From Longimicrobium sp. (GTDB lineage Bacteria; Gemmatimonadota; Gemmatimonadetes; Longimicrobiales; Longimicrobiaceae), in contig DASVWD010000009.1 of the NCBI GenBank assembly GCA_036389795.1, forward strand, positions 1 to 34,862: DNA of 34,862 bases. Direction: 5' to 3'. The first letter of the stretch is position 1; each line of letters opens with the position of its first letter. Shown here one piece after another: positions 4,552 through 34,586 of this stretch. A program made the translations under genes and the position numbers. The notes under the pieces are model-generated. The model made no database searches and was not told where the DNA came from. It saw only the letters and a list, made by a program, of their open reading frames with translations.

Positions 4552-6885
4552 CTACGGCGTCTGCGAAGGGCAGTCGCTGCACCACGGGATGACGGTCACC
4601 GTTCGGGGCGAGACCGACGGTACGCCCGGAAGCCGCAGCGTCAGCGTGAGCCCCTGAACCCAGGGACTCGCGCGGGTGGTGCGCAGCGGGTAGCTCGCGA
4701 CCGACCAGACATACAGACCGTAGTAATCGAAGCTCCAAGGAGACGGCGGGAAGAGCACCGTGCTCCCGCCCTCGAGTGCAGCCGGATAGTCCGCGGTGAC
4801 TTCGGGAAGCGTGTGGTCGATAACGGGATTGCCGTAGCGGTCGCTCACGCCGATCCGGATGCCCAGAGGTTCGCAGGTGCCCCGCCACATGGGGTCGGGA
4901 GACGTAGATGCCAGCGGCCTCACCGTGTCGGCCCGCACTTCGTGCCAGTGGCAAGGAAACCGCAGGTTGTATCCGTGATTTTGCGCCATCAGAATCAGGA
5001 ACCCGGCTGGCGCGCCAGGATCGAGCAGTATGGAGTCCGCCGCTTCAAGGTGACTCCCATCGGGCCAGGTTCCCGAGACCGACAGCGTGGCTCTGCGGGA
5101 GAGGTCGAGATAGGGATGCGGGTAGTTGGGGGTCAATCTCGTCCGGAGCGTCCACGCGACGCTGGCGCCGCCCGCCGCGTCGGTGATCGCCACCATGTCG
5201 CTCAACGCGCCCGACGCCTGGAGGTCCAGCCTCACCCCGGCGACCGGCGTCCCCTCCTCATCGGTGGCCGTGAACGAGTACCGGAGCGTGGTGCCGACCA
5301 CGGCGGGCTCCCCCAGAGCGCCGTTCTCTCGATCGATGCTCAACCTGTAGCGCGTCTGCGCTTGGTTGACCTCCGCGTATACCACGTTGGCAAAGGCTGC
5401 GAGCACGCGGAGGGTGGCGAATGACCCCGGCCCGGGGAGCGTCCAGGCAACGCTCGCCGTGCCGGTGGCATCCGTGGCCGCCGATGTCGGATTCACGGTT
5501 CCGGGAAATCCGGTGAAGCGGATTTGCAGTCCGGAGACGGGCCCGCCTGCCTCGTCGAGAGCCGTGACCCGGTAACGGACGGTGCTGCCGGGCGGGAGGG
5601 ATACTTCCGCGCTGCCATCTTCGCGCTCCAAGCGCCACCGGATCCTCTTCAGCGCCTGCTGTACCTGCGCATAGGTGCTCCAGTCGTCCGGCGCACGGAC
5701 GTAGAGCGTAGCCGTAGACCCCGACCACGGGAGCGTCCAGTCGACGCTCGCGATACCTGCAGAGTTGGTGGTGGCTCCTTGCGGCCTCACGTCTCCCGGC
5801 CATCCGCTGAAGTAGACAGTCACCCCGGGAATGGGCTGGCCGGTGTCGTCAAGCGCCGTGACCCGGTAGCGCACGGTGCTTCCGGCCAGTGCGGGTGTTT
5901 CCGGACTGCCCTCGTCGCGCTCGAAACGCCACTGGAAGTCCCGCGCGTCCTTCAGCGCCTGGCGCGCCTGGGCGTAGGTTACCCTTCCGTCCGGCGCAGT
6001 GACGGAGAGCCAGGCCGCGGCCCTCGAGTTCGGGAGCGTCCATGCGGTGCTCGCCGTCCCCGCGGAGTCGGTGGAAGCCGTCTCCGGCCGCACTCTGCCC
6101 GGCGACCCGCTGAAGAGTAGCGCAAGTCCCGCGACGGGCCGGCCGGTCTCGTCCAGTACCGTGACCCGGTAGCGCACGGTGCTGCCGGGCATCGCGGCTA
6201 CTTCCGCGCGGCCGTCCTCGCGCTCGAGGCCGAACCAGTACCGATTGCTCGTCACCTCCACGTCGGCGCTGGCGCTCATCCCGGGGCCGGTGACCGTCAG
6301 CGTCGTCCTACCCTGGCCGCGCGGCACGATCCGGATCGTGCACGGGTCTCCTGGAAGCGGCGCGTAGACGGCGACAGCCACCGAAGAATCCGACTGGAAC
6401 TGCAGCGGCACCTGGCCGCAGACGCTGGTCCCACTCGCGGCGCTGCGCGCGGTGAAGTGCACGTAGCTCGGGCTCAGCGCCCACATGTCTGCGCGGATGA
6501 CGCCGCCCGGCGGCGTCTCCAGCGCGAGCTCGCCGAGTGCGCCCCAGGAGACGTGGAGCCGAACCGCGCTCCGCAAATCACGGAAGAAGGCGGTGATCTC
6601 GGCCGTACCCGGCCCGTGCGGCGTCACCAGCCCCATGGAGTCGACGGAGGCCACTTCGGGACGGTCGGACCGGAAGCCGACCCGGGCGTCGGGCAGCGCG
6701 TTTCCGCGCGCATCCACCACGACCGCCGTAATGCGGAAGGTGTCGGCGACGAGGACGGAGCGCTCCGCGGGCGAATCGACGCGGATCGCGCTCGCCAGCA
6801 CCGCCGCGCTCGGCGCGTCCCGACAGGCGCCGAGAACGAACGAGAGCGCCGCCACCGCGGTGAGCTGGACAGGTAGGCCTGACAT
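4552..6885 (-). CDS. Lipoprotein with tandem bacterial Ig-like repeats
   Basis: A 777-residue surface or periplasmic lipoprotein. The signal peptide ends in the lipobox LGAC (C21). Residues 33-112 look like a BIG2-type Ig domain (RITAVVVDARGNALPDARV, then VASVDSMGLVTPHGPGTAEI). From residue 216 there are four repeats of about 98 residues (216-310, 317-413, 416-510, 513-610) with the pattern GSTVRYRVTALD, then D.AGTAS.AWTLP; the first three are joined by TYAQ..QALK-type linkers. The C-terminal 170 residues are unique. A strong ribosome site, GGGAGGT (6891-6897), sits upstream of the ATG. Ig-repeat proteins of this type are adhesins or cell-surface stalks; no ligand can be predicted. The preceding NUDIX gene is more than 300 nt away and probably separate. 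Confidence 0.88.
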   Translation of the reverse strand: MSGLPVQLTAVAALSFVLGACRDAPSAAVLASAIRVDSPAERSVLVADTFRITAVVVDARGNALPDARVGFRSDRPEVASVDSMGLVTPHGPGTAEITAFFRDLRSAVRLHVSWGALGELALETPPGGVIRADMWALSPSYVHFTARSAASGTSVCGQVPLQFQSDSSVAVAVYAPLPGDPCTIRIVPRGQGRTTLTVTGPGMSASADVEVTSNRYWFGLEREDGRAEVAAMPGSTVRYRVTVLDETGRPVAGLALLFSGSPGRVRPETASTDSAGTASTAWTLPNSRAAAWLSVTAPDGRVTYAQARQALKDARDFQWRFERDEGSPETPALAGSTVRYRVTALDDTGQPIPGVTVYFSGWPGDVRPQGATTNSAGIASVDWTLPWSGSTATLYVRAPDDWSTYAQVQQALKRIRWRLEREDGSAEVSLPPGSTVRYRVTALDEAGGPVSGLQIRFTGFPGTVNPTSAATDATGTASVAWTLPGPGSFATLRVLAAFANVVYAEVNQAQTRYRLSIDRENGALGEPAVVGTTLRYSFTATDEEGTPVAGVRLDLQASGALSDMVAITDAAGGASVAWTLRTRLTPNYPHPYLDLSRRATLSVSGTWPDGSHLEAADSILLDPGAPAGFLILMAQNHGYNLRFPCHWHEVRADTVRPLASTSPDPMWRGTCEPLGIRIGVSDRYGNPVIDHTLPEVTADYPAALEGGSTVLFPPSPWSFDYYGLYVWSVASYPLRTTRASPWVQGLTLTLRLPGVPSVSPRTVTVIPWCSDCPSQTP
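5056..6240 (-). repeat. Four tandem Ig-like coding repeats
   Basis: The DNA for residues 216-610 of the lipoprotein contains four in-frame repeats of about 295 nt. The first three share long identical blocks such as GGSTVRYRVT and the QALK linkers. The fourth (GTTLRYSFTATDEEGTPVAG) is more diverged. This is consistent with expansion by unequal recombination, the fourth copy being the older. Confidence 0.8.
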
Positions 6886-7200
6886 GGAGCACCTCCCTCG
6901 TGGACTTCGGTCGGTACCGCCTCTAAGCCATACCGGAGTCTTTTATGGGAGAGAGGTGCGCGCTCCGTTCGGTGCGCGTCTTTTTAGACAATATACTGAA
7001 AGGAAGTCTTATTCCCTATAGTGACGAATGTGAGCGTCGAGACCGCCGCGTTCGAATTCGGATTTCGCGCGCACCACCGCTTACCTCCCGGCGGTCGGGC
7101 GCAAGGAGCGCACGCGTGTGCTGGGGGGCGTGGGTAACGGGACAGGGAGAGGAAGCTGAAGCCGCGGCGGGCGGCGCCGCTCGTCTGTTTCGCCTGAAGA
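6886..7200. other. Spacer between NUDIX and Ig-repeat genes with an AT-rich patch
   Basis: No gene is supported. The stretch around 6978-7022 is markedly AT-rich for this genome (it contains TTTTTAGACAATATACTG and TTATTCCCTATAGTG) and includes the small inverted repeat GTCT/AGAC. It is the likely place for the Ig-lipoprotein promoter, but no -35/-10 pair with normal spacing could be found. An alternative-sigma promoter or a regulator site is possible. Confidence 0.35.
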
Positions 7201-8097
7201 TCAGGCGGGAGGCGGCACCACGATCGAGACGCCGCCGGGGTCGCGGCGCATGCGGGGGAGGATGGTGGGGACGGGGGCGTCTTCCAGCGCGGCGCGCAGG
7301 GCGCCGAAATCGGCGAAGGACGCGAGCTGCTCCAGGGTGCGCACGGTGGGCGGCAGCAGCTTCATCTGCCCGGCGCGGAAGCGCTCGACGGCCTCGCGCG
7401 GGGGGAGCCACACCGCGTCGGTCATCTCCGCGTCGTGCACCTCGCAAGCCGCGTCCTCGGGCGCGCGCGCGGCGAAGAAGCGGGTGTCGTAGCGGCGCGG
7501 CTCGGGCTCGGGGGTGATCCAGTGGGCGATGTAGACCAGCGCGTCGCCCATGAGCCGCAGCCCGTTCCCCACCGCCACGTCGCGGAGCGAGACGACGTCG
7601 TTCAGCAGCGCCCGGCGCGCCACGGCCATGCTCTCGGCGTCGTGGAGCTGGGTGGGGCCCTCGGGATCGGGGCGCGCCAGCAGGATCCCCGTCTCCTCGA
7701 ACGCCTCGCGAATGGCGGCGGCCACGTACCCCAGCGCCTCGGCCGCATCGACTTCCAGCCGCTCCGCCCACTCGCCCGGGGTGGGGCCGTCGAGCCGGTC
7801 GGCCACCTCGCCGCTCGAGTCGCGCGGGTCCACCACGCCGCCGGGGAAGACCCACGCCCCGGCCGCGAAGCCGCTCCGCTTGTGGCGCCGGAGCAGCAGC
7901 GCCTCCAGCCCGCCCCCGCCCTCGCGCAGCAGGACCACGGTGGCGGCGGGGCGCGGGGGGACGGGCACCAGCGCGGGGTCGTCCACCTTCTCCGCGAACC
8001 CGGGGGGAAGGCTCTCCTCCGGGATCAGGAAGACGCTGGGGTCGCCGGTGGCGCGGCGCGCGGACGAGGCGGCGGACTGCGGGCGGTCGTCGGACAC
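7201..8097 (-). CDS. NUDIX hydrolase, NUDT19-like
   Basis: A 298-residue NUDIX protein. The substrate-binding strand is AWVFPGGVVD (81-90) and the catalytic helix is REAFEETGI (130-138), which supplies the metal-binding glutamates. About 40 residues lie between the GG and the REXXEE half of the box, more than the canonical spacing. Such an insertion is characteristic of the NUDT19 (RP2p) branch, whose members hydrolyse CoA or CoA esters. The C-terminal half carries the family's conserved TRFFAARAPE and DAVWLPPREAVERF segments. A sigma-70-type promoter lies 40 nt upstream (8139-8167). The exact substrate is inferred from family; another NDP-X is possible. Confidence 0.88.
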   Translation of the reverse strand: MSDDRPQSAASSARRATGDPSVFLIPEESLPPGFAEKVDDPALVPVPPRPAATVVLLREGGGGLEALLLRRHKRSGFAAGAWVFPGGVVDPRDSSGEVADRLDGPTPGEWAERLEVDAAEALGYVAAAIREAFEETGILLARPDPEGPTQLHDAESMAVARRALLNDVVSLRDVAVGNGLRLMGDALVYIAHWITPEPEPRRYDTRFFAARAPEDAACEVHDAEMTDAVWLPPREAVERFRAGQMKLLPPTVRTLEQLASFADFGALRAALEDAPVPTILPRMRRDPGGVSIVVPPPA

Positions 8098-8138
8098 GGG
8101 CCGTCGCGGGCGAAAGGTCCTGTCTCGGGAGCACCGAC

Positions 8139-8167
8139 AGCATAACCGGACCGGAAGGGCGAGGCAA
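8139..8167 (-). promoter_or_regulatory. Sigma-70-type promoter for the NUDIX gene
   Basis: On the minus strand, TTGCCT (8162-8167) and TATGCT (8139-8144) are spaced by 17 nt. The transcript would begin near 8132, giving a leader of about 35 nt to the ATG at 8097. Confidence 0.6.
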
Positions 8168-8172
8168 ACCGG

Positions 8173-8362
8173 GCCCCCTCCCCCGTGCGGTCCCCGGTTG
8201 CTCGCTCCTCGCAGCCAGAGGACGCGCTCCCCTCCCCCGCTGCGCGGTAGAGGGGAAACACCTCGGCGCTGCGCGCGACGAAACTACGTGCGGGATGCGG
8301 TTGAAGCCGCGTAGGGTTTGCGAGGCTTTCCGTGGTTCCAGCGGGCGGGTTCACCCGCTCGC
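8173..8362 (+). repeat. Dispersed structured element with TTCA-capped hairpin, copy 1
   Basis: Homologous to 27913-28115 in the same orientation. Shared blocks include ACACCTCGGCGCT, GTTGAAGCC, GCGAGGCTTTCCGTGGTTCC and the cytosine-rich left end. The right end is a hairpin: GCGGGCGGG (8341-8349), loop TTCA (8350-8353), CCCGCTCGC (8354-8362), nine pairs including one G-T. A second small hairpin with a TGAA loop (GCGGT/GCCGC) sits at about 8298-8311. It does not code for a protein. It could be a mobile palindromic element or an RNA. Confidence 0.75.
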
Positions 8363-8647
8363 ACCCCGGCGCTCGACGGTGGAGCTCAAGAGACAGGCCC
8401 CCGTATCCGCCGACTCGACGCCGTCCGATTTCCTGCCGATCAGACAGGATGGTTCATGCCTGAATGATTGCATTCCGCCCTTCCGGCAGTCGGGCCGCGG
8501 GCGCACGCAAGTGCAGGCGGGACGCGGGTTTTCCAGGGCACGCGCGGCGGATTGGGGGGTATCCCGTCTCCGGCAAGGGAAATGCTGAGCGACCGGTCCA
8601 GCGGCCGCCCCACGCCGGGGCGGCGACCGGATTGAAAGGAATATCCG

Positions 8648-11511: not shown

Positions 11512-12285
11512 TCACAGGCTCTCCCGCGAGGTCCACGTGCCGGAGGCGGGGACCGGGGGCGGGGGGGTGGTCGCGGCGGGCGTAGCCGGCTCGTCCTCGT
11601 CGCCGCGCAGGCGGAACTGCCAGCCGACGGAGACCTGCCAGCCGCTCAGGTCCAGGTCGCGCGGCCAGTTGGCGGGGAGCCGCTCGGAGGCGGCCTCGGG
11701 GAGCTCCCAGTCGACGCTCTCGAAGCTGCGCCAGCGGTAGCCGGCCTCCACGAAGAGCCCGCGCGGCTTCAGCAGGTAGATCCCCGCCGAGACGCCGAAC
11801 TCGAAGGTCTCGGCCTCCAGCTCGTACTCCACGCCCTCGGGGTCGTAGCCGCGCGCGTGCCACAGCGTGGTGAGCCCGAAGCTGGCGCCCACGTACGGGT
11901 CGGCGATCCCCAGCCCCAGACGCTCGGGGAGCGAGGCGTACGCGGTGATGGTGGGGAAGGCGCGCAGGGAGCCGTGCAGGTCCAGCGTGGGCTCGGCGGC
12001 CTCGAAGCCGCGCAGGAAGCTGGTGCCGAGCCCCAGCTCCAGGTCGGCGCCGCCCACGGAAGGGAGGTCGATCAGCACCTCGGCGGCCATGCCGCAGATC
12101 CCGATCCCCAGGCAGTCGCCCTCCCGCGCGCGCAGCTCGCCGGAGCCGGGGATGTGGCTCCCCTGCAGCGCCACGGTGATGCTGTTGACCTCGTCGAACA
12201 GCTCGGTGAGGAAGTCGAACTGGGCGTAGGCGGGCGTGGCCGCCAGCACGCCGGCCAGGGCGAGGAGGGGAACGGCTCGCTTCAT
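11512..12285 (-). CDS. Probable outer-membrane beta-barrel protein
   Basis: A 257-residue exported protein. The signal peptide MKRAVPLLALAGVLAATPAYAQ has a clean AYA cleavage site, which sets the start at 12285; upstream in-frame sequence is Arg/Pro-rich and not credible. The mature part alternates polar and hydrophobic residues (DLELGLGTSF, VGASFGLTTLWHARGY, LFVEAGYRWRSF, GWQVSVGWQFRL), typical of small outer-membrane barrels of about eight strands. Two cysteines, CLGIGIC, may form a disulphide in a loop. After the last strand comes a Pro/Thr-rich tail, so the usual terminal aromatic residue is missing. No specific function is recognisable. The gene converges on lon and shares its terminator region. 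Confidence 0.78.
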   Translation of the reverse strand: MKRAVPLLALAGVLAATPAYAQFDFLTELFDEVNSITVALQGSHIPGSGELRAREGDCLGIGICGMAAEVLIDLPSVGGADLELGLGTSFLRGFEAAEPTLDLHGSLRAFPTITAYASLPERLGLGIADPYVGASFGLTTLWHARGYDPEGVEYELEAETFEFGVSAGIYLLKPRGLFVEAGYRWRSFESVDWELPEAASERLPANWPRDLDLSGWQVSVGWQFRLRGDEDEPATPAATTPPPPVPASGTWTSRESL

Positions 12286-12781
12286 CGGGGGAACGGTCCG
12301 GGAGACGTGCGGGGGAGAAAAAACGACGCGCCGGCGGGTGCCGGCGTAAGCGGTTGGGCGCGTGGAAGATGCGCGAAAGCGGCGCGCGGGGCAAGGGGGA
12401 CGGAGGCAGGGAAGGAGGCCGGGGGCGGCTGAAGCCGCGGCAACCACCGCAGGAAGCCTCGCAGACTGCGCGAGGCTGCGGGGCCGGCATCGGCGCGGGG
12501 GATCGGGATCGAAGCGGGGGCCGCCACGCGCGCGGAAGGCCGCGGCGGCGGTGTGTTCCCACAAACCTGGGCGGAGTGAGACCCGCGCGCGTGCGCCGGG
12601 GCGGCGGACCAGGGAGAGGGCGGGCGCGCGGGGCTCACGGAGCGGGCGCGGAGACCCCGCAAGCCGGCGGCCCGGCGGGACGCGCCGGCGAGGAGGCTCC
12701 GCGCCCCCGCGCAGGAGACAGGCGGACACGGGGTTTCGTCCGCCTGGCTCCGGAGCGGCACCGGAGCCCGCACAACGAGAC
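12286..12781. other. GC-rich spacer upstream of the beta-barrel gene
   Basis: No credible gene: frames through it encode Arg/Pro/Gly-rich low-complexity peptides. It contains a hairpin CGCCGGC/GCCGGCG near 12330-12347, a diverged inverted copy of the structured repeat (12425-12477), and no convincing promoter. Confidence 0.5.
12425..12477 (-). repeat. Structured element, diverged third copy
   Basis: Read on the minus strand this segment has GCGAGGCTTCC, then GTGGTT, and ends in GCGGC-TTCA-GCCGC (12425-12438), the same order as the right ends of the copies at 8173-8362 and 27913-28115. Its left side forms another hairpin, AGCCTCGC/GCGAGGCT (12455-12462 with 12470-12477). Similarity outside these blocks is weak. 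Confidence 0.5.
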
Positions 12782-12815
12782 GAGCCCCGGTCCGCAGTTT
12801 CGCGGACCGGGGCTC
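12782..12815 (-). terminator. Terminator after the subtilisin-like gene
   Basis: GAGCCCCGGTCCGC (12782-12795) pairs perfectly over 14 bp with 12802-12815 around a 6-nt loop. It lies 43 nt past the stop of the minus-strand protease gene. The T-richer side (CTTTGCTTC) is on the plus strand, so it may stop transcription both ways. Confidence 0.75.
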
Positions 12816-12858
12816 CTTTGCTTCGTCCTCACCTCGGAGACGAGACCGACCACCCGGA

Positions 12859-14271
12859 TCAGTTCCCCGAGACGGCGCGGTAGGCGTTGATCACGCCGTA
12901 GCCCTCCTCGGAGTGGCGGCTCGGGTAGTACTGCGCCGTCTGCCACAGGCGCTGCCGGAGCTGGTCGCGCGTGAGCGCGGGGTTGCGGCTCCACACCAGC
13001 GCGGCCACCGACGAGACCACCGCGGTGGCGTTCGAGCTGCCGCCCATGCTCACCACGTCGCCCGTGTACCGGCCCGTGCTGGGGACGTCGAGGTACGCGG
13101 TGAGCTCCACGTCGCTGCCGTGGTGGATGCCGCAGGGCACGCCGCCGCCGGGGTAGGTGACGCCGGTGACGGCCACCACCTCGGGCATGTCGGCCGGGAA
13201 CACCACGTTGCTGTCCAGGATGCCGTCGCCGCACCCGGAGGTGCCGGCCGCGCCGAAGAAGAGCACGTCGTAGTTGTAGTGCCAGTACTCGATCTCGTCG
13301 GACACCTGCCACCACCAGTTCAGGCTCTCCCACGCCATCGCGATCACCCACGAGCCGTACTGCAGGGCGCCGCGCACGCCGTACTTGGCGTCGCTGCTGG
13401 AGACGGCGGCCACCCCGTTGGCGTGGCGCACGCTCACCAGGTTGGCGCGGTAGGCGATGCCGCCCACGTTCTGCCCGTCGCGCGGCGCGGCGATGATGCC
13501 GGCCATGCGGGTGCCGTGGCCGCACTCGTCGTACGCCGAGGTGAAGGTGGGCGAGACGTACAGGAGGCGGAGGCTGCGCCCGGCGCTCTCACCGCTGGTG
13601 AAGGTGCTCATGAACTGCCCCTGCGCCGACGACAGCCCGGTGTCGATCAGGCCGATGGTGACCCCGGCGCCGCTGGAGAGCGTCCAGGCGGAGGGGATCC
13701 CCATGGCGGTGAACTTCTGCGAGTAGACGTCGCCCGAGGCGGTGTACTGGCGGTCGCCCGTCCACGGGTCGCCCCAGCTGCATCCGCCCACGCCGGCGTG
13801 GCTGTTCAGGTCGCCGGCGGCCATCACCGGCTCCACGTAGTCCACGAAGCCCAGCCTGCGCACGGCCCTGAGCGCGTCCACGCTCGCCAGCCGCACCTTG
13901 AGCGTGGGCAGCAGGGTGTCGCGCTGCAGGAGCGTCACGCCCTGCTGGGCGAGGACGGCGCGGCCGGCCTGGCTCCAGGTGGGCGCGTCGACCAGCACCT
14001 TGCCGCGGTAGAAGCCGCGCGGCGCGCCCGGCGCCTTGAGGCCCACCGTGGCCACCCCGCCGCCGGCGGCGACGTGCTCCCACAGCGCCTCGTCGGTGAA
14101 GTCCACGAAGGTGCCCGGCCGCTCCTGGGCGCGGGTGGGGATCTGCCCCTCTACGCGCGCGGCCGCGGGGGCGGCCGGCGGGGCGAGCGGGGTCTGGCTG
14201 TCGTCGGAGCACGCGGCGAGCGCGAGCAGCGCGGCCGCGGCGAGCGGGGCGGTGAGACGGAAACGGACCAT
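12859..14271 (-). CDS. Subtilisin-like (S8) serine peptidase lipoprotein
   Basis: A 470-residue exported protease. The lipobox LAAC (C21) follows a short hydrophobic stretch. Residues about 40-150 form an N-terminal prodomain-like region (RLASVDALRAVRRLGFVDYVEP). The catalytic triad is D210 (GLIDTG), H252 (CGHGTRMAG) and S413 (GSSNATAVVSS). The usual oxyanion-hole asparagine (AAGN) is replaced by threonine: AAGTSG, T344. Cysteine pairs such as C164, C250, C347 and C380 suggest disulphides outside the cytoplasm. Ribosome site GAGGA lies 6 nt before the ATG and a sigma-70-type promoter is at 14364-14392. The product is probably a cell-envelope endopeptidase; the specificity is unknown. Confidence 0.92.
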   Translation of the reverse strand: MVRFRLTAPLAAAALLALAACSDDSQTPLAPPAAPAAARVEGQIPTRAQERPGTFVDFTDEALWEHVAAGGGVATVGLKAPGAPRGFYRGKVLVDAPTWSQAGRAVLAQQGVTLLQRDTLLPTLKVRLASVDALRAVRRLGFVDYVEPVMAAGDLNSHAGVGGCSWGDPWTGDRQYTASGDVYSQKFTAMGIPSAWTLSSGAGVTIGLIDTGLSSAQGQFMSTFTSGESAGRSLRLLYVSPTFTSAYDECGHGTRMAGIIAAPRDGQNVGGIAYRANLVSVRHANGVAAVSSSDAKYGVRGALQYGSWVIAMAWESLNWWWQVSDEIEYWHYNYDVLFFGAAGTSGCGDGILDSNVVFPADMPEVVAVTGVTYPGGGVPCGIHHGSDVELTAYLDVPSTGRYTGDVVSMGGSSNATAVVSSVAALVWSRNPALTRDQLRQRLWQTAQYYPSRHSEEGYGVINAYRAVSGN

Positions 14272-14708: not shown

Positions 14709-17201
14709 TCACCGCCAGTCGCCGAAAAGGACGAACGGCGCCCAGAAGCCGGGGTGGCCGAACTCCGGGTCTTCCTGGAGCGCCCGCTGCGCGAGCCGCA
14801 TCGACAGGTCCTTCGGGTGGCCCTGCGAGAGCGCCTGGTAGAACTGGGCGAAGAACTCGCGGGCCGACTGGTCCTCCACCGGCCACAGCGAAGTGACCAC
14901 GCTGGGGATCCCGGCGGCCGCGGCCGCGCGCGTCAGTCCGGCCAGCTCGTCGCCGGGGTAGCGCTTCGCCAGCCCCGTCACGCACCCGCTGAGCGTGAGC
15001 AGGCCCGCCGAGATCCGGCTTTCCATCAGGTCTTCCGCCGTCACCCGCCCGTCCGCCATCTCGACGCCGGAGAGGAGGGGGTCGAGCGGGTCGTACACGC
15101 CGTGGGAGGCGACGTGCACCACCGCCAGGTCCGGCGGCGCGTCGAGTAGCGCCGCCCGCGTGGCCCTGCTCCCCAGCAGCGGCGCGACTCCCAGGCGGGC
15201 CGCGACCCCGACGGCCTCGAGCTCCGCGCCGGGAAGGTCGCGGGTGGGGTTGCCGAGCACCCGCGCGGCCCCCTTCCGCAGCGCCGGACGGGCGAGCCCC
15301 AGGCACACCGGGAGGAACGCCGCCGAGGGGAGGACGCTGAGCGCGGCGGACTCGGCCAGGTACACCCGCTGCGGACCTTCCCCGGCCGGCCGGAACCAGG
15401 TGGCGCCGAAGGAGACGTAGTGGAGGGCCCCGTGCGGGACGATCAGCAGCCGCTCCATCGGCCGCAGCACGTCCCACACCGGCCCGAAGAGGAGGTGGAA
15501 GAGCACCTCTCCGGTCGGGACTCCCTCCACCCGCGTCGTCAGCTCGGTGCGGAACCGCTCGACCAGGTCGCCCAGGTCGAACCTGCCGAGCCGGTTGACG
15601 GTCAGCGCGGGCATCCCTTCGCTCGTCAGCACGAACACCGCGAGGTGGTCGCCGGGGCCCGCGAAGAACTCCACCACCGCCGTCTTCGGCGGGATCGCCC
15701 GGAAGAGCGCGTCGTGGCCCGGCAGCGTGTCGGTAACGGCGGCCGCCCGCGGCCCGGCGGAGCGGATCTCGGCCCGCAGCCGCCGCAGCTCCTGCAGCAG
15801 CGGCCGCGCCCGCTCGCGGTCTCCGTCCCGCAGCCCGGTGAGCTCGCGGGCCAGCTGCTCGCGCCGCTCCAGCAGGGGGTCCCCCGCCACGCTGCGCTGC
15901 AGGCGCTCTGCGCCCAGCGCGTCGAGGAAGGCGCGGGCCCGCGCGCGCTCGCTGAAGTAGAACGCGTTCCAGCGCTGGGAGAGCGTGGCGCTGAGCAGCA
16001 GCCCCTCAGCGTACAGGTCCTCTTTGTTCCAGAGGAGCTGCTCGCGCTCCTCGGGGCGGCCGATGCCGGTCCGCAGCAGCTCCACGGCTTCCGCGGCCTG
16101 CGCATACGCCGGGAGGACCTCGTCGTTCAGCGCGCGGGCCGCCTCGCTCGCGTCGGCGGCGCCCCGCACGGTGGCGGCGCGCGCGCGCGCCTTCAGCCAG
16201 AGCCCGCGCCACAGGAGCTCGACCAGGCCGAGCGCCTCCGCCTCGTCCACCACCTTCGAGGCGCGCGCGAGCGCGGCTCGCGCGTCTCCGCGCGACAGCT
16301 CCGTCTGGGCGAGGTTGAGGTCGCCGCGCAGGGCGTAGGCGGCGTTCCCCACCTGCCGGTGCAGCGCCTGGGCCTCCTGGTGCAGCCGGCGAGCCTCCGC
16401 GTGGTCGCCGCGCTTCGCCGCCACCACGCCCAGGCTGGAGAGCGTGCTGGCGATGGCGTCCTGGTTGCCGATGCGGCGGTAGAGCGAGAGCACCGACTCG
16501 AAGCCGGCGCGCGCGAGCTCGACCTGTCCCTTCTCGTCCAGCTGCACGGCCAGGTTGCTCAGCGCGTCGGCCGCCTCCTTGAGGAACCCGCCCTTCTCCG
16601 CCTCGGCGAGCGCTTCCCGCAGGTAGGCGTCGGCCGTTTCGAGGTCGCCGCTCGTCTGGTAGACCAGGGCCAGGAGGTTCAGGTCGTTGGAGAGCGCCCG
16701 GACGTTCCCGGTCCGGCGGTCGAGGTCGATGGCGCGCGCCAGGGTCTCCCGGGCGGCCTCCAGCTTCCCCTGTTCCAGGTAGAGGGCGGCCAGGTTGGCC
16801 AGGATGTCCGAGAGGAGCACGGGCGCCCACCGCTCTCCCTCCGTCATCCGTTCGGCCTCGCGGAGGTGCCGCTCGGCCGCGGCGAACTCGCCGGCCTGGG
16901 TGGCCACGATCCCCTGCTCCATGCGCAGGGCGGCCAGGACCATGCCGCGCACCTCGGGCGGCACGGCGTCGATCCCCGCTTCGACCGCCTGGAGGGCGGC
17001 CCGCGCCTCCCCGGCGCGCCCCGCCTCGCGCAGCCACGCGGGCTTCTGCACCAGGATCGTGGCCAGGAGCCCCGCGTCGCCGGCCTCGCGCGCCAGGGCT
17101 TCGGCCCGCGCGAGCTGGTCGAGCGCACCCCGCAGGTCGCCCCCCAGCCACGTCTGCGTGGCGGCGAGAAACGACGCCACCGCTTCCTCTTTCTCCGTCA
17201 T
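14709..17201 (-). CDS. TPR-repeat CHAT-domain protease (caspase-like)
   Basis: An 830-residue protein. Residues about 1-420 are tetratricopeptide-like helical repeats (LAALYLEQGKLEAARETLARAI at 137-158; LSNLAVQLDEKGQVELARAGF at 214-234). A charged linker (430-480) follows, then a CHAT domain (about 500-830) with the caspase-type dyad H700 (HVASHG) and C740 (LSGCVTG). It ends in the family motif FWAPFVLFGDWR. No signal peptide is seen, so it is probably cytoplasmic. CHAT proteases with TPRs include Csx29 of the type III-E CRISPR complex and proteases of gasdermin systems, but no CRISPR, cas or gasdermin gene is nearby. It is divergent from the amidase gene. A good TTGACC lies upstream near 17258 without a convincing -10. 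Confidence 0.93.
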   Translation of the reverse strand: MTEKEEAVASFLAATQTWLGGDLRGALDQLARAEALAREAGDAGLLATILVQKPAWLREAGRAGEARAALQAVEAGIDAVPPEVRGMVLAALRMEQGIVATQAGEFAAAERHLREAERMTEGERWAPVLLSDILANLAALYLEQGKLEAARETLARAIDLDRRTGNVRALSNDLNLLALVYQTSGDLETADAYLREALAEAEKGGFLKEAADALSNLAVQLDEKGQVELARAGFESVLSLYRRIGNQDAIASTLSSLGVVAAKRGDHAEARRLHQEAQALHRQVGNAAYALRGDLNLAQTELSRGDARAALARASKVVDEAEALGLVELLWRGLWLKARARAATVRGAADASEAARALNDEVLPAYAQAAEAVELLRTGIGRPEEREQLLWNKEDLYAEGLLLSATLSQRWNAFYFSERARARAFLDALGAERLQRSVAGDPLLERREQLARELTGLRDGDRERARPLLQELRRLRAEIRSAGPRAAAVTDTLPGHDALFRAIPPKTAVVEFFAGPGDHLAVFVLTSEGMPALTVNRLGRFDLGDLVERFRTELTTRVEGVPTGEVLFHLLFGPVWDVLRPMERLLIVPHGALHYVSFGATWFRPAGEGPQRVYLAESAALSVLPSAAFLPVCLGLARPALRKGAARVLGNPTRDLPGAELEAVGVAARLGVAPLLGSRATRAALLDAPPDLAVVHVASHGVYDPLDPLLSGVEMADGRVTAEDLMESRISAGLLTLSGCVTGLAKRYPGDELAGLTRAAAAAGIPSVVTSLWPVEDQSAREFFAQFYQALSQGHPKDLSMRLAQRALQEDPEFGHPGFWAPFVLFGDWR

Positions 17202-28408: not shown

Positions 28409-28924
28409 ATGAAACTGCTCGTCATCCGCCACGCCATCGCCGAAGACCGCGACGAGTGGGCGTTCAGCGGCAAGCCCGACGCGGAGCGCCCCCTGACCCG
28501 CGACGGGCGCGACCGCATGCGCCGCGCGGCCAACGGGATCGCGCTGGAGGCGCCGCGGCTGGACCTGATCGCCACCTCGCCGCTGGTGCGCGCGGTGCAG
28601 ACGGCCGAGATCGTGGCCGACGAGTACGACGGGAAGGAGCTGACGGTAGTGAACGAGCTCTCGCCCGAGTGCGCGCCCGAGACGCTCCTGCCCTGGCTGC
28701 GCTCGCACGAGCCCGACACCACCATCGCCGTGGTGGGGCACGAGCCGCACCTGGGGTTCCTGCTCGGCTGGCTGCTGACGGGGCGCCACGAGAGCTTCGT
28801 GGAGCTGAAGAAGGGCGCGGTGGTGCTGCTGGAGTTCGACGACCCGCCGGCGGCGGGGAACGCCACGCTGCTGTGGGCGCTCCAGCCGGGGCAGCTGCGC
28901 AGGCTCCGCAAGAAGGAGAAGTAG
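28409..28924 (+). CDS. SixA-type phosphohistidine phosphatase
   Basis: A 171-residue histidine phosphatase. The catalytic motif is LLVIRHAIAED with R7 and H8; other conserved positions are R61 (SPLVRAVQTAEI) and H111 (VVGHEPHLG). It is near the normal short length of SixA, which removes phosphate from histidine on phosphotransfer domains. The next gene, encoding a CHAD-CYTH protein, starts 7 nt after its stop. SixA and CHAD genes are often neighbours in bacteria, pointing to a shared role in phosphate or polyphosphate metabolism. A good ribosome site GGAGAGGA is present. Confidence 0.92.
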   Translation: MKLLVIRHAIAEDRDEWAFSGKPDAERPLTRDGRDRMRRAANGIALEAPRLDLIATSPLVRAVQTAEIVADEYDGKELTVVNELSPECAPETLLPWLRSHEPDTTIAVVGHEPHLGFLLGWLLTGRHESFVELKKGAVVLLEFDDPPAAGNATLLWALQPGQLRRLRKKEK

Positions 28925-28931
28925 CGAGAAC

Positions 28932-30338
28932 ATGAGGACGCCGGCCGAGCTGCTGGACCTGCCGGTGGAGCGCAGCGCCCGCTGGCTGGCGCTGCGCTTC
29001 CTGGAGGAGGCGGCGGCCGCGCACGCCCGGCTGGACGACGCGGACGACACGGAGGCGCTGCACGACTTCCGTGTGGGGCTGCGCCGCCTGCGCAGCACGG
29101 TGCGGGCGTACCGGCGCTGGCTGGGCGGGAGCCTCGGCCGCAAGGACCGCCGCCGCCTGGGCGCGCTGGCCGACGCCACGGGGGCGGCGCGCGACGCGGA
29201 GGTGCACATCGCCTGGCTGGAGCCGCGCGTGGAGAAGCTCTCCGGCGCGGAGCGGGCCGGGGCGGAGGCGTTCCTGGAGGAGCTGCGCGAGGAGAAGGCC
29301 GACGCCGAGGCCGACCTGCAGCGCGAGGTGGCAAGGGACTTCCCCCGCGAGCGCTGGCGGCTGGCCCGGCGGCTGCGCTTCTTCCGCGTCGAGGTGGAGC
29401 TGGACGACCCCGCGGGCGGGCCGCTGCTGGGTGCGGTGCTGGGGCGGCTGATCCGCGAGCAGGCGGACGAGCTGGAGCGGCACCTGGCGCACGTGCGCGC
29501 GCTGCAGCACCAAGAGGAGGCGCACCGGGCGCGCATCGCGGCCAAGCGGCTGCGCTACCTGATCGAGCCGTTCCAGGACGAGATCGAGGGCGGGCGCGAC
29601 GCCGTCAAGCAGCTCAAGAAGCTCCAGGACGTGCTCGGCGACATGCACGACGCCGACGTGCTGCTGGCGCGCGTGGCCGCGGAGCTGGCGGACGCGCCGG
29701 AACCGGCCGAGGGCGAGGAGGACGGGGCGGCGGGCCTGCGCGCGCTGGCGAAACTGCTGGAGCGCGAGCGCCAGGAGCGCTTCGACGAGCTGCAGAGGCG
29801 CTGGCTGGACGGGCAGGGGGCGGAGTTCTTCGCGTCGGTGCGCGAGATGGGCAGGCGCGTGGCGAGCGCGGGGCACCCGAACCGCGAGATCGAGCGCAAG
29901 TTCCTGCTCAAGCGGATGCCGCGCCTGGACGGGCTCCCCGTCGTCGTGCTGGAGATCGACCAGGGGTGGCTCCCGGGCGAGCGGCTGGCCGAGCGGCTCC
30001 GGCGCACGCGCACGGACGGCGCGGTGCGCTACTTCCGCACGGTGAAGCTGGGGGCGGGCACCAGCCGCTTCGAGCTGGAGGAGGAGACCGACGAGCGCAC
30101 CTTCCGCCGCCTCTGGTCACTCACCAAGGGCAGGCGCGTGCGCAAGCTGCGCTACCGGGTGCAGGAGGGCGACTTCACCTGGGAGATCGACCGCTTCCGC
30201 GGCCGCAGGCTGGTCCTCGCCGAGGTGGAGCTGCCCACGGAGGACACCGAGGTGCTCCCGCCCGCGTGGCTGCGGCGCCTGGTGGTCCGCGACGTCACCG
30301 GGGAGCCGGAGTACGTGAACATCAACCTGGCGAGGTGA
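28932..30338 (+). CDS. CHAD-CYTH domain protein
   Basis: A 468-residue protein. Residues about 10-310 are a helical CHAD domain, rich in Arg/Lys and His, with signature stretches LHDFRVGLRRLRSTVRAYRRWL (43-64) and HRARIAAKRLRYLIEPF (198-214). CHAD domains bind polyphosphate. Residues about 317-468 are a CYTH triphosphate-tunnel domain: the ExExK motif EIERK (319-323), then RLRRTR, YFRTVKLG, EEETDE, RKLRYRV and LAEVEL. In the well-known ygiF-type arrangement CYTH precedes CHAD; here the order is reversed. The gene is directly after sixA, and the AT-rich HEPN-like gene begins 20 nt after its stop. It probably acts on inorganic triphosphate or polyphosphate; enzyme activity is unproven. Confidence 0.9.
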   Translation: MRTPAELLDLPVERSARWLALRFLEEAAAAHARLDDADDTEALHDFRVGLRRLRSTVRAYRRWLGGSLGRKDRRRLGALADATGAARDAEVHIAWLEPRVEKLSGAERAGAEAFLEELREEKADAEADLQREVARDFPRERWRLARRLRFFRVEVELDDPAGGPLLGAVLGRLIREQADELERHLAHVRALQHQEEAHRARIAAKRLRYLIEPFQDEIEGGRDAVKQLKKLQDVLGDMHDADVLLARVAAELADAPEPAEGEEDGAAGLRALAKLLERERQERFDELQRRWLDGQGAEFFASVREMGRRVASAGHPNREIERKFLLKRMPRLDGLPVVVLEIDQGWLPGERLAERLRRTRTDGAVRYFRTVKLGAGTSRFELEEETDERTFRRLWSLTKGRRVRKLRYRVQEGDFTWEIDRFRGRRLVLAEVELPTEDTEVLPPAWLRRLVVRDVTGEPEYVNINLAR

Positions 30339-30358
30339 ACCCGCTTAGCAGGAGTTCT

Positions 30359-31717
30359 ATGAAGCTGGAGTTACACCCTTCTGCGCAGAAGGCCTTTGAT
30401 GAGCAAGCGGCGGGTTTCCGTACAACCCTGTCAACCACCCTCATTGATCAAGAAAATGAGGGCACAGGCCGTGTATTCTCGAATCTTTATATCGATGGTG
30501 AAATCTCAGAAAAAGATGTTATCGGACCGATAACATCCTCGCGAACGAATGCCTTCGGCGAGGAAATCGCGCGGTTTCTGTACACTCCGGAGGGGGTTGT
30601 TGGAATTGAGGGTGAAGCGTTTCGAGATCTAAGAAGACTTGCTGAGAAGATCCAACGGACTCCTGATCTCCGTGACGCCGTTTCTGTAGAAACTGTTTTC
30701 TCAAAGCTGTTCGAATGGGTCTGTGCGTCTGAAACTTTCGGTGACAGTCACGCGAGTGCGACTTCCTTTGTTTTGCGCGAATGCGAGAAGTCTATTAGCA
30801 CATATAGACTGTTGATACCTATCTACGAACTCTTCCTGGAAGAGCCGTTGCAGATCGGAAGAGTCGTACTGAGACCCCTTACCGGAGACGAAATAGACGA
30901 TTGGCTACGGCAGATAAGCTCGTCGCATCCAGAGATGACATCTACGTTCGAGACTGAGATCAACCGGAAGCGTAAGGAGATGCAAGGGAGGGCTGTTGCC
31001 GAAGTAAGCATTGTAGCTGAACGCCAAAGGGCTGAAGAGATAGCGCATGCGCAAACCTCCGATTCCCTTGCTTTACTGCGGCTATTCTCACGAGCCGCAT
31101 TCGAGCCCACAGAGACTTCGTTCTGCGTTCCTCTGGGCCGGCAACATGTTGAGGTATCAAGACATATCCTTTTCCAAAATGGGGATTATATAGGTGAATC
31201 GTCAAAGATCACCAATGTGGGGTCCGGAATGTTCTGGACGATTAATCGTGAGGTCAGTCATATCATCTTAGACGCAGGTTTGAGAATCTTGAGTAATCTG
31301 TTGATCTCGCCTTCACTCACAGACTTTGAACAAAAGTTACTTGACTCGGTATTTCTCTACTCTCGAGCAACGCTTCAGAGCGAACTTTCAGAAAGGCTCT
31401 TGTACATCGTTGTGGCATTGGAATCCTTTATGTTAAGGAACAATTCCGAGCCCATCCTAGGGAACGTTGCGGAACGGGTCGCGTTTACGATTGGACGAAG
31501 TTCAGAGGAGCGAAGACAAATTTCGAGGGACATAAAAGCCGCCTACGACCTGCGCAGCCGATTTGTTCACCATGGACATGCATCGGATGACCTTGCATGT
31601 ATGCGCACGTTCATGAGGCATGCGCATACCTGTCTAACAACTCTGGTCGCTAACTGTCACAGGTTCAAAACCCGTGATGAACTATTCGAAGTACTGGAGG
31701 AACGTAAATTTGCATAA
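30359..31717 (+). CDS. HEPN (ApeA-like) domain protein, AT-rich, probably acquired
   Basis: A 452-residue protein read from ATG 30359 with AGGAG (30350-30354) just before it. Codon use is unlike every neighbour: AT-rich codons (TTT, ATA, AGA, TTG) and an estimated 45% GC in a high-GC genome. Residues about 335-450 resemble the ApeA-type HEPN domain: LYIVVALESFMLRNN, then IKAAYDLRSRFVHHG, whose R399 and H404 make the RX4H nuclease motif of HEPN RNases. Residues 1-330 are helical and unrecognised; no transmembrane segment is obvious. ApeA-like proteins include anti-phage defence factors, so a role in defence by RNA cleavage is possible but inferred. Its end overlaps the start of the M16 gene. 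Confidence 0.75.
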   Translation: MKLELHPSAQKAFDEQAAGFRTTLSTTLIDQENEGTGRVFSNLYIDGEISEKDVIGPITSSRTNAFGEEIARFLYTPEGVVGIEGEAFRDLRRLAEKIQRTPDLRDAVSVETVFSKLFEWVCASETFGDSHASATSFVLRECEKSISTYRLLIPIYELFLEEPLQIGRVVLRPLTGDEIDDWLRQISSSHPEMTSTFETEINRKRKEMQGRAVAEVSIVAERQRAEEIAHAQTSDSLALLRLFSRAAFEPTETSFCVPLGRQHVEVSRHILFQNGDYIGESSKITNVGSGMFWTINREVSHIILDAGLRILSNLLISPSLTDFEQKLLDSVFLYSRATLQSELSERLLYIVVALESFMLRNNSEPILGNVAERVAFTIGRSSEERRQISRDIKAAYDLRSRFVHHGHASDDLACMRTFMRHAHTCLTTLVANCHRFKTRDELFEVLEERKFA

Positions 31718-34586
31718 GCTAGCTAATGCTCACGGCGCATCGCTCGCGCGAATTGTTATTCCATTCGCAATATGGACGGCTCTGGCTTCTTCTGCCGTTG
31801 TCGCGCAGACGGCGCCCGCCCGGCCGGCCGCCGCCGCCGACACGCTGCTTCCGAGCGACACGACGGTGGTCGTCGGGAAGCTGGCGAACGGGCTCACCTA
31901 CTACGTGCGCAGGAACGCGGAGCCGCCGGCGCGGGCGGAGCTGCGGCTGGTGGTCAACGCCGGGTCGCTCCTGGAGGACGAGGACCAGCGCGGGCTGGCC
32001 CACTTCGTCGAGCACATGGCGTTCAACGGCACCCGCCGCTTCGCCAAGCACGAGCTGGTGGACTACCTGGAGTCGGTGGGGATGCGCTTCGGGCCCGACG
32101 TGAACGCCTACACCAGCTTCGACGAGACCGTCTACATGCTCTCGCTCCCCACCGACTCGGGCGGGGTGCTGGAGAAGGGGCTCGACATCCTGGAGGACTG
32201 GGCGGCGGGGATCACCTTCGACACCGCCGAGGCGCGCAAGGAGCGCGGGGTGGTGATCGAGGAGTGGCGCCTGGGCCGCGGCGCGGGCGCGCGCATCCGG
32301 GACAAACAGTTCCCCGTGCTCTTCGCCGGCTCGCGCTACGCGGAGCGCCTGCCGATCGGCGACGTGGAGACGCTCGGGAGCTTCGACCTCGAGGCCCTGA
32401 CGCGCTTCTACCGCGACTGGTACCGGCCCGACCTGATGGCCGTGGTGGCGGTGGGCGACTTCGACCCGAAGCGGGTGGAGGCGATGATCCGCGAGCGCTT
32501 CGGGCGCATCCCGGCGCGCGCGAACCCCCGCCCCCGCCCCGCCTTCCCCGTCCCCGGACACGCGGAGCCGCGCTTCTCGGTGGCGACCGACCCCGAGGAG
32601 CAGTCGACGTCGGTGAGCGTGGTGCGGATGGTCCCCTCGCGCGTGCGGGCCACGCGGTCGGCGTACCGCCAATCCATCGTGGAGTCGCTCTACGCGGGGA
32701 TGCTGGACGACCGGCTGAACGAGATCACCCAGCGTCCCGGGGCGCCGCTGGTGGGGGTCTCCTCCTTCCGCGGCTCGCTGGTGCGGCCGGTGGACGCCTA
32801 CTACCTGTCCGCCCAGGTGCCGGAGGGCGGGGCCCAGCGCGGGCTGGCGGCGCTGCTCGCCGAGGCGGAGCGCGCGGCGCGGCACGGCTTCACGCCGCCC
32901 GAGCTGGAGCGCGAGAAGGCCGACCTGCTGCGCTCCTGGGAGCAGATGTACGCGGAGCGCCGCAAGACGCCGTCGGCGGCGTTCGCGGGGCAGTACGCCG
33001 GGCACTACCTCTACGGCGGGCCGCTGCTGGACGTGGCCACCGAGTACGAGCTGCACCGCGCGCTCCTGCCGGGGATCGCGCTGGCGGAGGTGGACTCGGT
33101 CGCGCGGACGGCGCTGGCGCGCAGCGGGCGGACGGTGCTGGTGAGCGGGCCGGCGAGCGCGCCGGCGCCCTCGGAAGCCGCGCTGGCGGCGCTGGCGGAC
33201 TCGGTGGCCTCCGCGCCGGTGGAGGCGTACGCGGAGGCCGTGTCCGACGCGCCGCTGCTGGCCCGGAAGCCCGCGCCGGGGCGGGTGGTGGAGGAGCGGA
33301 AGGTCCCCGAGATCGGGGTGACGGAGTGGCGGCTGGCCAACGGGGTGCGCGTGGTGCTCAAGCCCACCGACTTCAAGGAAGACGAGATCATCCTGGCCGG
33401 CCGGAGCCCCGGCGGCGAGTCGCTCCTGCCGGACTCGGCGCACCTGTCGGCCGCGACGGCCTCGGCGGCGGCGCAGGTGGGGGGCGTGGGCGAGCTCTCC
33501 ATCGTGGACCTGCAGAAGCGGCTGGCGGGGAAGACGGCCGTGGCGGGGGTGTACGTGGACGACCTGGGCGAGGGCATCTCGGGATACGCCGGCCCGCGCG
33601 ACGCGGAGCTGATGCTGCAGCTGGTGCACCTCTACTTCACCGCCCCGCGGCGCGACAGCGCGGCGTGGGAGGCGTACCGCGACCGCGCGCGGACCATGCT
33701 GGCCAACCGCGGCGCCAGCCCCGAGGCCGCCTTCTTCGACACGCTGAGCGCGGTGCTCACGCAGAACCACCCGCGCGCGCGGCCGCTCTCGCCGGCGAGC
33801 TTCGACTCCATCTCCCTGGACCGCTCGCTGGCCGTCTACCGCGAGCGCTTCGCCGACGCGGGCGACTTCACCTTCTACCTGGTCGGGGCGTTCGACCCCG
33901 ACTCGCTCAAGCCGCTGGTCGAGACGTACCTCGGCGGGCTGCCGTCGCAGGGGCGGAAGGAGACGTGGCGCGACCTGGGGATCCGCGCGCCGGCGGGGGT
34001 GGTGACGCGTACGGTGCGGCGCGGGGTGGAGCCCAAGGCCAGGACGCAGATCGTCTTCCACGGCCCCGTGGAGTTCGACCGGCGCACCGTGGTGCTGCTG
34101 CGGACTCTGGGCGAGGCGCTGGAGATCCGCCTGCGCGAGCGGCTGCGCGAGGACCTGGGCGGCACCTACGGCGTCTCCGTCGCGGGCTCGGCGGAGCGCG
34201 ACCCGCGGCCGGGGTACCGCTTCGTGGTGGAGTTCGGGTCGGCGCCGGAGCGGCTGGACGAGCTGGTGCGGGTGGTGTGGGCCGAGATCGACTCGGTGAA
34301 GGCGCGCGGCGTCCCCGACAAGGACCTGCAGAAGGTGCGCGAGGCGCAGCGGCGGTCGCGCGAGGTGGACCTGCGCGAGAACCAGTACTGGCTGGGCGCG
34401 CTGATGACGTACGACCGCTACGGCTGGGACCCGCGCCAGATCCCCGCCACCCCGCTGTCGGCCTCCTTCACCTCCGCCGACCTGCAGGCCGCCGCCCGCC
34501 GCTTCCTCGACCCGGGCCGCTACGTGCAGGTGTCGCTGGTGCCCGAGACGGCGCCGCCCGCGCGCGCCGCGCCGGACCGCCGCTGA
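31710..34586 (+). CDS. M16 family zinc metallopeptidase (insulinase/pitrilysin-like), secreted
   Basis: A 958-residue M16 peptidase. The likely start is TTG 31710: GGAGGA (31696-31701) lies 8 nt before it, and TTGCATAA overlaps the stop of the preceding gene. The alternative ATG at 31674 adds 12 residues without a ribosome site. A signal peptide follows (IVIPFAIWTALASSAVVAQ). The zinc motif is HFVEH (H98, E101, H102), with the third-ligand region ERGVVIEEWRLG. It has the four-lobed length of family members with two M16 repeats; the second (MVPS, then VGELSIVDLQ onwards) keeps the fold but not the motif. Bases 31718 to about 31800, coding the signal region, are AT-rich like the gene before; the rest has normal high GC. 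It probably degrades peptides outside the cytoplasm. Confidence 0.9.
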   Translation: MHKLANAHGASLARIVIPFAIWTALASSAVVAQTAPARPAAAADTLLPSDTTVVVGKLANGLTYYVRRNAEPPARAELRLVVNAGSLLEDEDQRGLAHFVEHMAFNGTRRFAKHELVDYLESVGMRFGPDVNAYTSFDETVYMLSLPTDSGGVLEKGLDILEDWAAGITFDTAEARKERGVVIEEWRLGRGAGARIRDKQFPVLFAGSRYAERLPIGDVETLGSFDLEALTRFYRDWYRPDLMAVVAVGDFDPKRVEAMIRERFGRIPARANPRPRPAFPVPGHAEPRFSVATDPEEQSTSVSVVRMVPSRVRATRSAYRQSIVESLYAGMLDDRLNEITQRPGAPLVGVSSFRGSLVRPVDAYYLSAQVPEGGAQRGLAALLAEAERAARHGFTPPELEREKADLLRSWEQMYAERRKTPSAAFAGQYAGHYLYGGPLLDVATEYELHRALLPGIALAEVDSVARTALARSGRTVLVSGPASAPAPSEAALAALADSVASAPVEAYAEAVSDAPLLARKPAPGRVVEERKVPEIGVTEWRLANGVRVVLKPTDFKEDEIILAGRSPGGESLLPDSAHLSAATASAAAQVGGVGELSIVDLQKRLAGKTAVAGVYVDDLGEGISGYAGPRDAELMLQLVHLYFTAPRRDSAAWEAYRDRARTMLANRGASPEAAFFDTLSAVLTQNHPRARPLSPASFDSISLDRSLAVYRERFADAGDFTFYLVGAFDPDSLKPLVETYLGGLPSQGRKETWRDLGIRAPAGVVTRTVRRGVEPKARTQIVFHGPVEFDRRTVVLLRTLGEALEIRLRERLREDLGGTYGVSVAGSAERDPRPGYRFVVEFGSAPERLDELVRVVWAEIDSVKARGVPDKDLQKVREAQRRSREVDLRENQYWLGALMTYDRYGWDPRQIPATPLSASFTSADLQAAARRFLDPGRYVQVSLVPETAPPARAAPDRR

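Follow-up and report, generated by a model that had tools for sequence, protein, structure and literature searches.

A recently acquired solo HEPN-domain gene between the CHAD and M16 genes of a Longimicrobium genome and its proposed role in abortive infection

The stretch of Longimicrobium sp. DNA analysed here (the window, 34,862 nucleotides) consists for the most part of genes that look like housekeeping genes. One gene behind the sixA-CHAD pair stands out by its base composition. It encodes a protein of 452 amino acids with a C-terminal HEPN domain (Table 1), and the locus raises the question of where this gene came from and what its product might do. A sequence-only reading had described it as an ApeA-like gene on an AT-rich island, possibly a one-gene defence system.

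Table 1 Coordinates of the features discussed, given as positions in the window
Feature	Position	Strand	Basis
sixA-like histidine phosphatase gene, ancestral flank	28409..28924	+	PF00300 E 1.2e-12; syntenic in siblings
CHAD-CYTH gene, ancestral flank	28932..30338	+	PF05235 E 4e-36; C-terminal 155 aa match 2fbl/3typ; syntenic
Low-GC block, acquired DNA	30310..31793	.	Maximum-likelihood change points, GC 0.489 vs 0.73; missing from syntenic siblings
AGGAG, probable ribosome-binding site of the HEPN gene	30350..30354	+	Sequence, spacing to ATG 30359
HEPN-domain protein gene, 452 aa	30359..31717	+	ORF (ATG 30359, TAA 31717, 452 codons) and translation; leave-one-out HEPN profile E 3.6e-16
N-terminal region, residues 1-309, presumed sensor/regulatory	30359..31285	+	No library match; AlphaFold unreliable
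C-terminal HEPN domain, residues 310-452	31286..31714	+	AlphaFold of residues 300-452; profile matches to ApeA
Codon of E355, invariant acidic residue	31421..31423	+	Invariant in alignments A1, A3, A4, A6
RX4H motif R399-S-R-F-V-H404, predicted RNase active site	31553..31570	+	Conservation; end of predicted helix 382-405
M16 peptidase gene, ancestral body	31710..34586	+	PF00675/PF05193; sibling proteins; probable TTG start 31710

The edges of the low-GC block were fitted as maximum-likelihood GC change points, with 2-log-unit intervals of 30303-30345 on the left and 31771-31811 on the right, which bears out the sharp fall at about 30345 and the recovery at about 31800 that had been noticed from the sequence. 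The GC content of this block of about 1.5 kb is 48.9%, whereas 1359-bp windows outside of it have a mean of 73.1% (sd 2.0) and a minimum of 66.7%. As the sequence-only reading had it, there is one gene in the island: a single open reading frame fills the block. At the composition of this gene the chance of 452 codons staying open is about 5e-11, and the two other forward frames contain 22 and 30 stops across the same interval. Its GC3 is 0.50, against 0.97-0.99 in sixA, CHAD and M16. We found no integrase, tRNA or convincing edge repeats marking the block and no second copy of the HEPN gene in the host genome (7.5 Mb).

The comparison with nine other genomes of the genus shows that sixA-CHAD-M16 is a conserved gene order. 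The CHAD gene is present in eight of the nine siblings, and in six (G001, G002, G004-G007) M16 is the next gene, with a short gap in between; the two genes are on separate contigs in G009, and in G008 the same gap holds an unrelated island of about 13 kb. None of the nine siblings has a full-length copy of the HEPN gene, and none has it at the CHAD-M16 junction. Since CHAD is directly followed by M16 in six siblings, the conserved order was interrupted here by insertion of the HEPN block, as had been supposed. No sibling carries the gene, in spite of the synteny of its flanks, and it is therefore foreign and recently acquired; conservation in relatives with matching composition, which would speak for an ancestral gene, was not seen. 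The HEPN block and the G008 island together mean that foreign DNA has entered the CHAD-M16 gap at least twice, and the gap is thus an insertion site common to both genomes. The junction offers a clean comparison of a filled with an empty site for a lone defence-like gene entering a housekeeping cluster. The island in G008 (L049, G008:C104:68500-83200) carries a tyrosine integrase (12266-13600), a MobA-type relaxase (6106-8376) and HNH endonucleases.

The insertion also affected the gene downstream. The right end of the block lies about 75-80 bp beyond the HEPN stop codon, within the 5' end of the M16 coding sequence, whose probable TTG start is preceded by GGAGG nine bases upstream. The signal peptide of the sibling proteins is encoded in high-GC DNA, whereas here it is encoded in the low-GC block (31710-31799). 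Because GC3 is 0.40 in codons 1-30 and 0.99 in the remainder, we assign the first 30 or so M16 codons, which encode the signal peptide, to the acquired block. Apparently, the insertion put its own sequence in place of the export signal of this conserved host gene, and it also appears to overlap the start codon.

The HEPN gene starts 20 bp downstream of CHAD on the same strand, and its stop overlaps the likely M16 start by 8 bp. Since it follows CHAD so closely, has an AGGAG of its own and runs into the M16 start, it is probably read in one transcript with its neighbours, as far as the arrangement of the sequence tells; no promoter-like or terminator-like site was found. Such an arrangement would fit a housekeeping or stress-response RNase without a phage role, one that might, for instance, work with the sixA-CHAD operon and act on the host's RNA during stress. 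However, the foreign composition, the absence from all siblings, a patchy distribution and divergent N-termini (see below) make this reading decidedly improbable. The gene might also be inert cargo, that is, a decaying or unexpressed mobile gene. Its composition is not adapted to the host, so it arrived recently, and a relative in G008, 31% identical and at another locus, has an in-frame TAG (L002 793-1989) just upstream of its HEPN part and is probably a decayed copy. The gene studied here, in contrast, has 452 fully open codons, an intact catalytic set and a good ribosome-binding site, and we regard inert cargo as quite unlikely.

By profile, conservation and a confident structure prediction, the C-terminal domain is a genuine HEPN domain. 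The leave-one-out HEPN profile scores the protein with 62.8 bits, while only one of 2000 shuffled controls was reported at all, the best single-domain score being 7.3 bits. In an alignment of 23 proteins from siblings, Chloroflexota, Bacillota, Pseudomonadota and one archaeon, E355, Y396, S400 and H404 are invariant, R399 is present in all but one and V403 is nearly invariant. The motif reads exactly as it had been given from the sequence, with R399 and H404 as its ends. RNases of the HEPN superfamily have RX4-6H as their active site (PMC3710099), and the polar residue that the superfamily criterion requires after the arginine is S400. AlphaFold predicts residues 300-452 as a helical bundle (mean pLDDT 89.7, pTM 0.85) with helices at 343-358 (containing E355), 366-378, 382-405 and 412-431, all with pLDDT of about 90. 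In this model R399 and H404 are not far apart, which would have spoken against the earlier reading, but share the end of a single helix that is predicted with confidence; the predicted positions of both residues and of E355 are those expected of HEPN active-site residues (PMC3710099). In one relative (L006 394-1848, from G396) the motif arginine is lost (YDAASKAVH), and its HEPN domain is possibly inactive.

Foldseek with the model of the HEPN domain ranked a HEPN toxin first, although weakly (E 0.37, probability 0.72), and the toxins 8xeh, 8xdj and 8yuf are among the best, likewise weak, fold matches. The protein could accordingly be the toxin of a toxin-antitoxin pair of the HEPN-MNT kind, now alone or neutralised by a gene at another place or by its own N-terminal half. 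However, neither an MNT gene nor another small partner adjoins it, the neighbours being CHAD-CYTH and M16, and the matched toxin chains have about 130 residues, whereas here there are 310 residues more and an overall length of about 320-470 amino acids is kept among the relatives. We therefore hold a toxin to be unlikely.

The closest relatives of known structure are the ApeA proteins. When a HEPN-only profile built without ApeA was compared with the PDB, ApeA structures were the only matches below E 0.01 (Ec2 3.3e-5, Ec3 9.6e-5, Ec1 0.006; Ec4 followed with 0.08), and a whole-length family profile searched against all PDB sequences also had ApeA on top (E 2.5e-4) and nothing else below E 0.01. 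The profile alignment places YDLRSxxVH on ApeA YRTRNLIVH, so that the R and H of RX4H are aligned, and the ALE helix on ApeA A(I/L)ESL. Like ApeA (Ec1-Ec4ApeA, PDB 9hxb-9hxn; PF18739), the protein has an N-terminal part of about 300 residues followed by a C-terminal HEPN domain. On the other hand, Pfam PF18739 (HEPN_Apea) and the PADLOC ApeA models do not match it at E 10, and at E 0.05 the curated ApeA models miss all 23 aligned proteins. Ec2ApeA has about 110 residues (376-489) between the helix with the conserved glutamate and the RX4H helix that are without counterpart here, where 43 residues separate E355 from R399. The proteins also differ in size (452 versus 593 aa), and the N-terminal part has no detectable sequence similarity to ApeA, the model of residues 1-300 being unreliable. 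The N-terminal domain of ApeA is about 300 aa long and mostly beta (PMC3710099), and the title of a 2026 preprint (reference 19 of PMC13405049) has deoxydinucleotides as activators of ApeA. Because the curated models miss both the protein and all 23 aligned proteins, we do not call it a member of ApeA. Judged by sequence profiles, it is related to ApeA in its HEPN core and stands outside ApeA as currently defined. Of the earlier label "ApeA-like", the relationship of the core and the profile match to HEPN thus stand, but the insert, a recognisable ApeA N-terminal domain and a match to the curated models are wanting.

The N-terminal region was described at first as an unrecognised stretch of about 330 residues, and it has stayed so. 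Residues 1-310 have no match in Pfam, PADLOC, NCBIfam or the PDB, nor does the whole protein, and a PHROGs scan returned a single match without significance (E 0.13). In the full-length AlphaFold model residues 1-300 did not fold, and Foldseek with this unreliable model was uninformative. Compared pairwise or by profile with the N-termini of the relatives, the region does not rise clearly above shuffled controls. N-termini are shared only between close pairs of relatives, while the HEPN part does align; this is as expected of sensor domains in an arms race, and the N-terminal region may act as a sensor. A conserved nuclease behind varying front parts is known from AbiJ and CARF-HEPN proteins (PMC3710099) and from Tha (PMC11087260). 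A likeness seen by eye between the N-termini of L059, L057/L061/L054 and the G008 relative (PLxxF...IxIRxLT) was dropped, as neither shuffles nor hhalign supported it.

Relatives of the HEPN part are scattered. In the phylum, the HEPN was found in 19 of 395 genomes, and 13 more loci came from a scan with one genome for each species, including Zixiibacteriota, Sphingomonas, Chloroflexota, Bacillota, an archaeon and Bradyrhizobium. A genome scan with the single 452-aa protein as query found no relatives, and none were found in phage records or in a scan of viral contigs. A tblastn search of plasmids returned proteins annotated as "HEPN domain-containing protein" that belong to the same HEPN subfamily (351-465 aa; e.g. 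WP_108674974.1 from Priestia megaterium; best E 2e-7) but align only over residues of about 270-442. The Priestia relative adjoins restriction endonuclease and STAND-TPR genes, the latter without counterpart in our locus; the Agrobacterium one adjoins TIR and GIY-YIG genes and an integrase, the Cupriavidus one a phage abortive-infection gene, and the Cronobacter relative lies on a plasmid with a tail-fibre gene. Among the neighbours of the 13 loci PADLOC reported a type I methyltransferase, a Pycsar cyclase and MADS-like genes; many housekeeping genes are found there as well. In scans made without a control set, these neighbourhoods are suggestive of defence. The STAND/TPR gene of Priestia lies 32 bp downstream of the HEPN gene (L008 4248-8581), and the two possibly form a two-gene defence unit.

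Taken together, the protein is rather probably a solo sensor-HEPN RNase of abortive infection, i.e. a stand-alone defence protein of two parts. That no partner of a recognised kind adjoins the gene agrees with the one-gene organisation suggested earlier. By analogy with characterised HEPN enzymes, it would dimerise, and two R399/H404 pairs would make up one metal-independent active site. The RNase would stay inactive as long as the N-terminal region of about 310 residues, as the sensor of infection, has not met a phage-derived cue; once triggered, the enzyme would cut cellular RNA (tRNA or mRNA), and growth would come to a halt before the phage multiplies. The nearest case worked out so far is Tha from Staphylococcus aureus prophages, an RNase that needs H270 and is triggered by phage tail proteins (PMC11087260). 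Both have an N-terminus that cannot be assigned, with poor AlphaFold confidence, and a C-terminal RX4H HEPN domain; Tha, likened here by description and not by direct sequence comparison, differs in its length of 301 aa, its location on prophages and its inhibitor gene ith. Another possible point of contact is DzbB of the Dazbog system (PADLOC PDLC03836), whose model is matched by two proteins of the 23-member alignment (E ≤ 0.05, best 6.4e-4) but not by the 452-aa protein itself.

If the proposed defence role is right, the protein joins the solo HEPN defence class as a new member, one that is so far unprofiled. This HEPN branch spans bacteria and archaea and is missed by the Pfam and PADLOC models, the 452-aa protein also by NCBIfam, and defence surveys therefore probably undercount it. 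A more far-reaching idea, that the branch is distinct and combines a conserved RNase with ever-changing N-terminal sensors, with a novel sensor fold and phage trigger in the present protein, is tentative and rather doubtful.

Some minor observations concern other genes of the window. In the CHAD-CYTH gene, the CHAD domain comes first and is followed by the CYTH-like domain, for which no Pfam CYTH match was reported; its counterpart 2fbl/3typ is a CYTH-fold protein. The familiar domain order is CYTH-CHAD, the opposite of that found here. Some other proteins of the window give PADLOC cross-matches that are not tied to particular genes. A gene on the reverse strand (14712-17201) encodes a protein of 830 aa with kinesin-light-chain-like TPRs, whose C-terminal part resembles a CHAT protease by eye (VVHVASHG ... 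LTLSGC).
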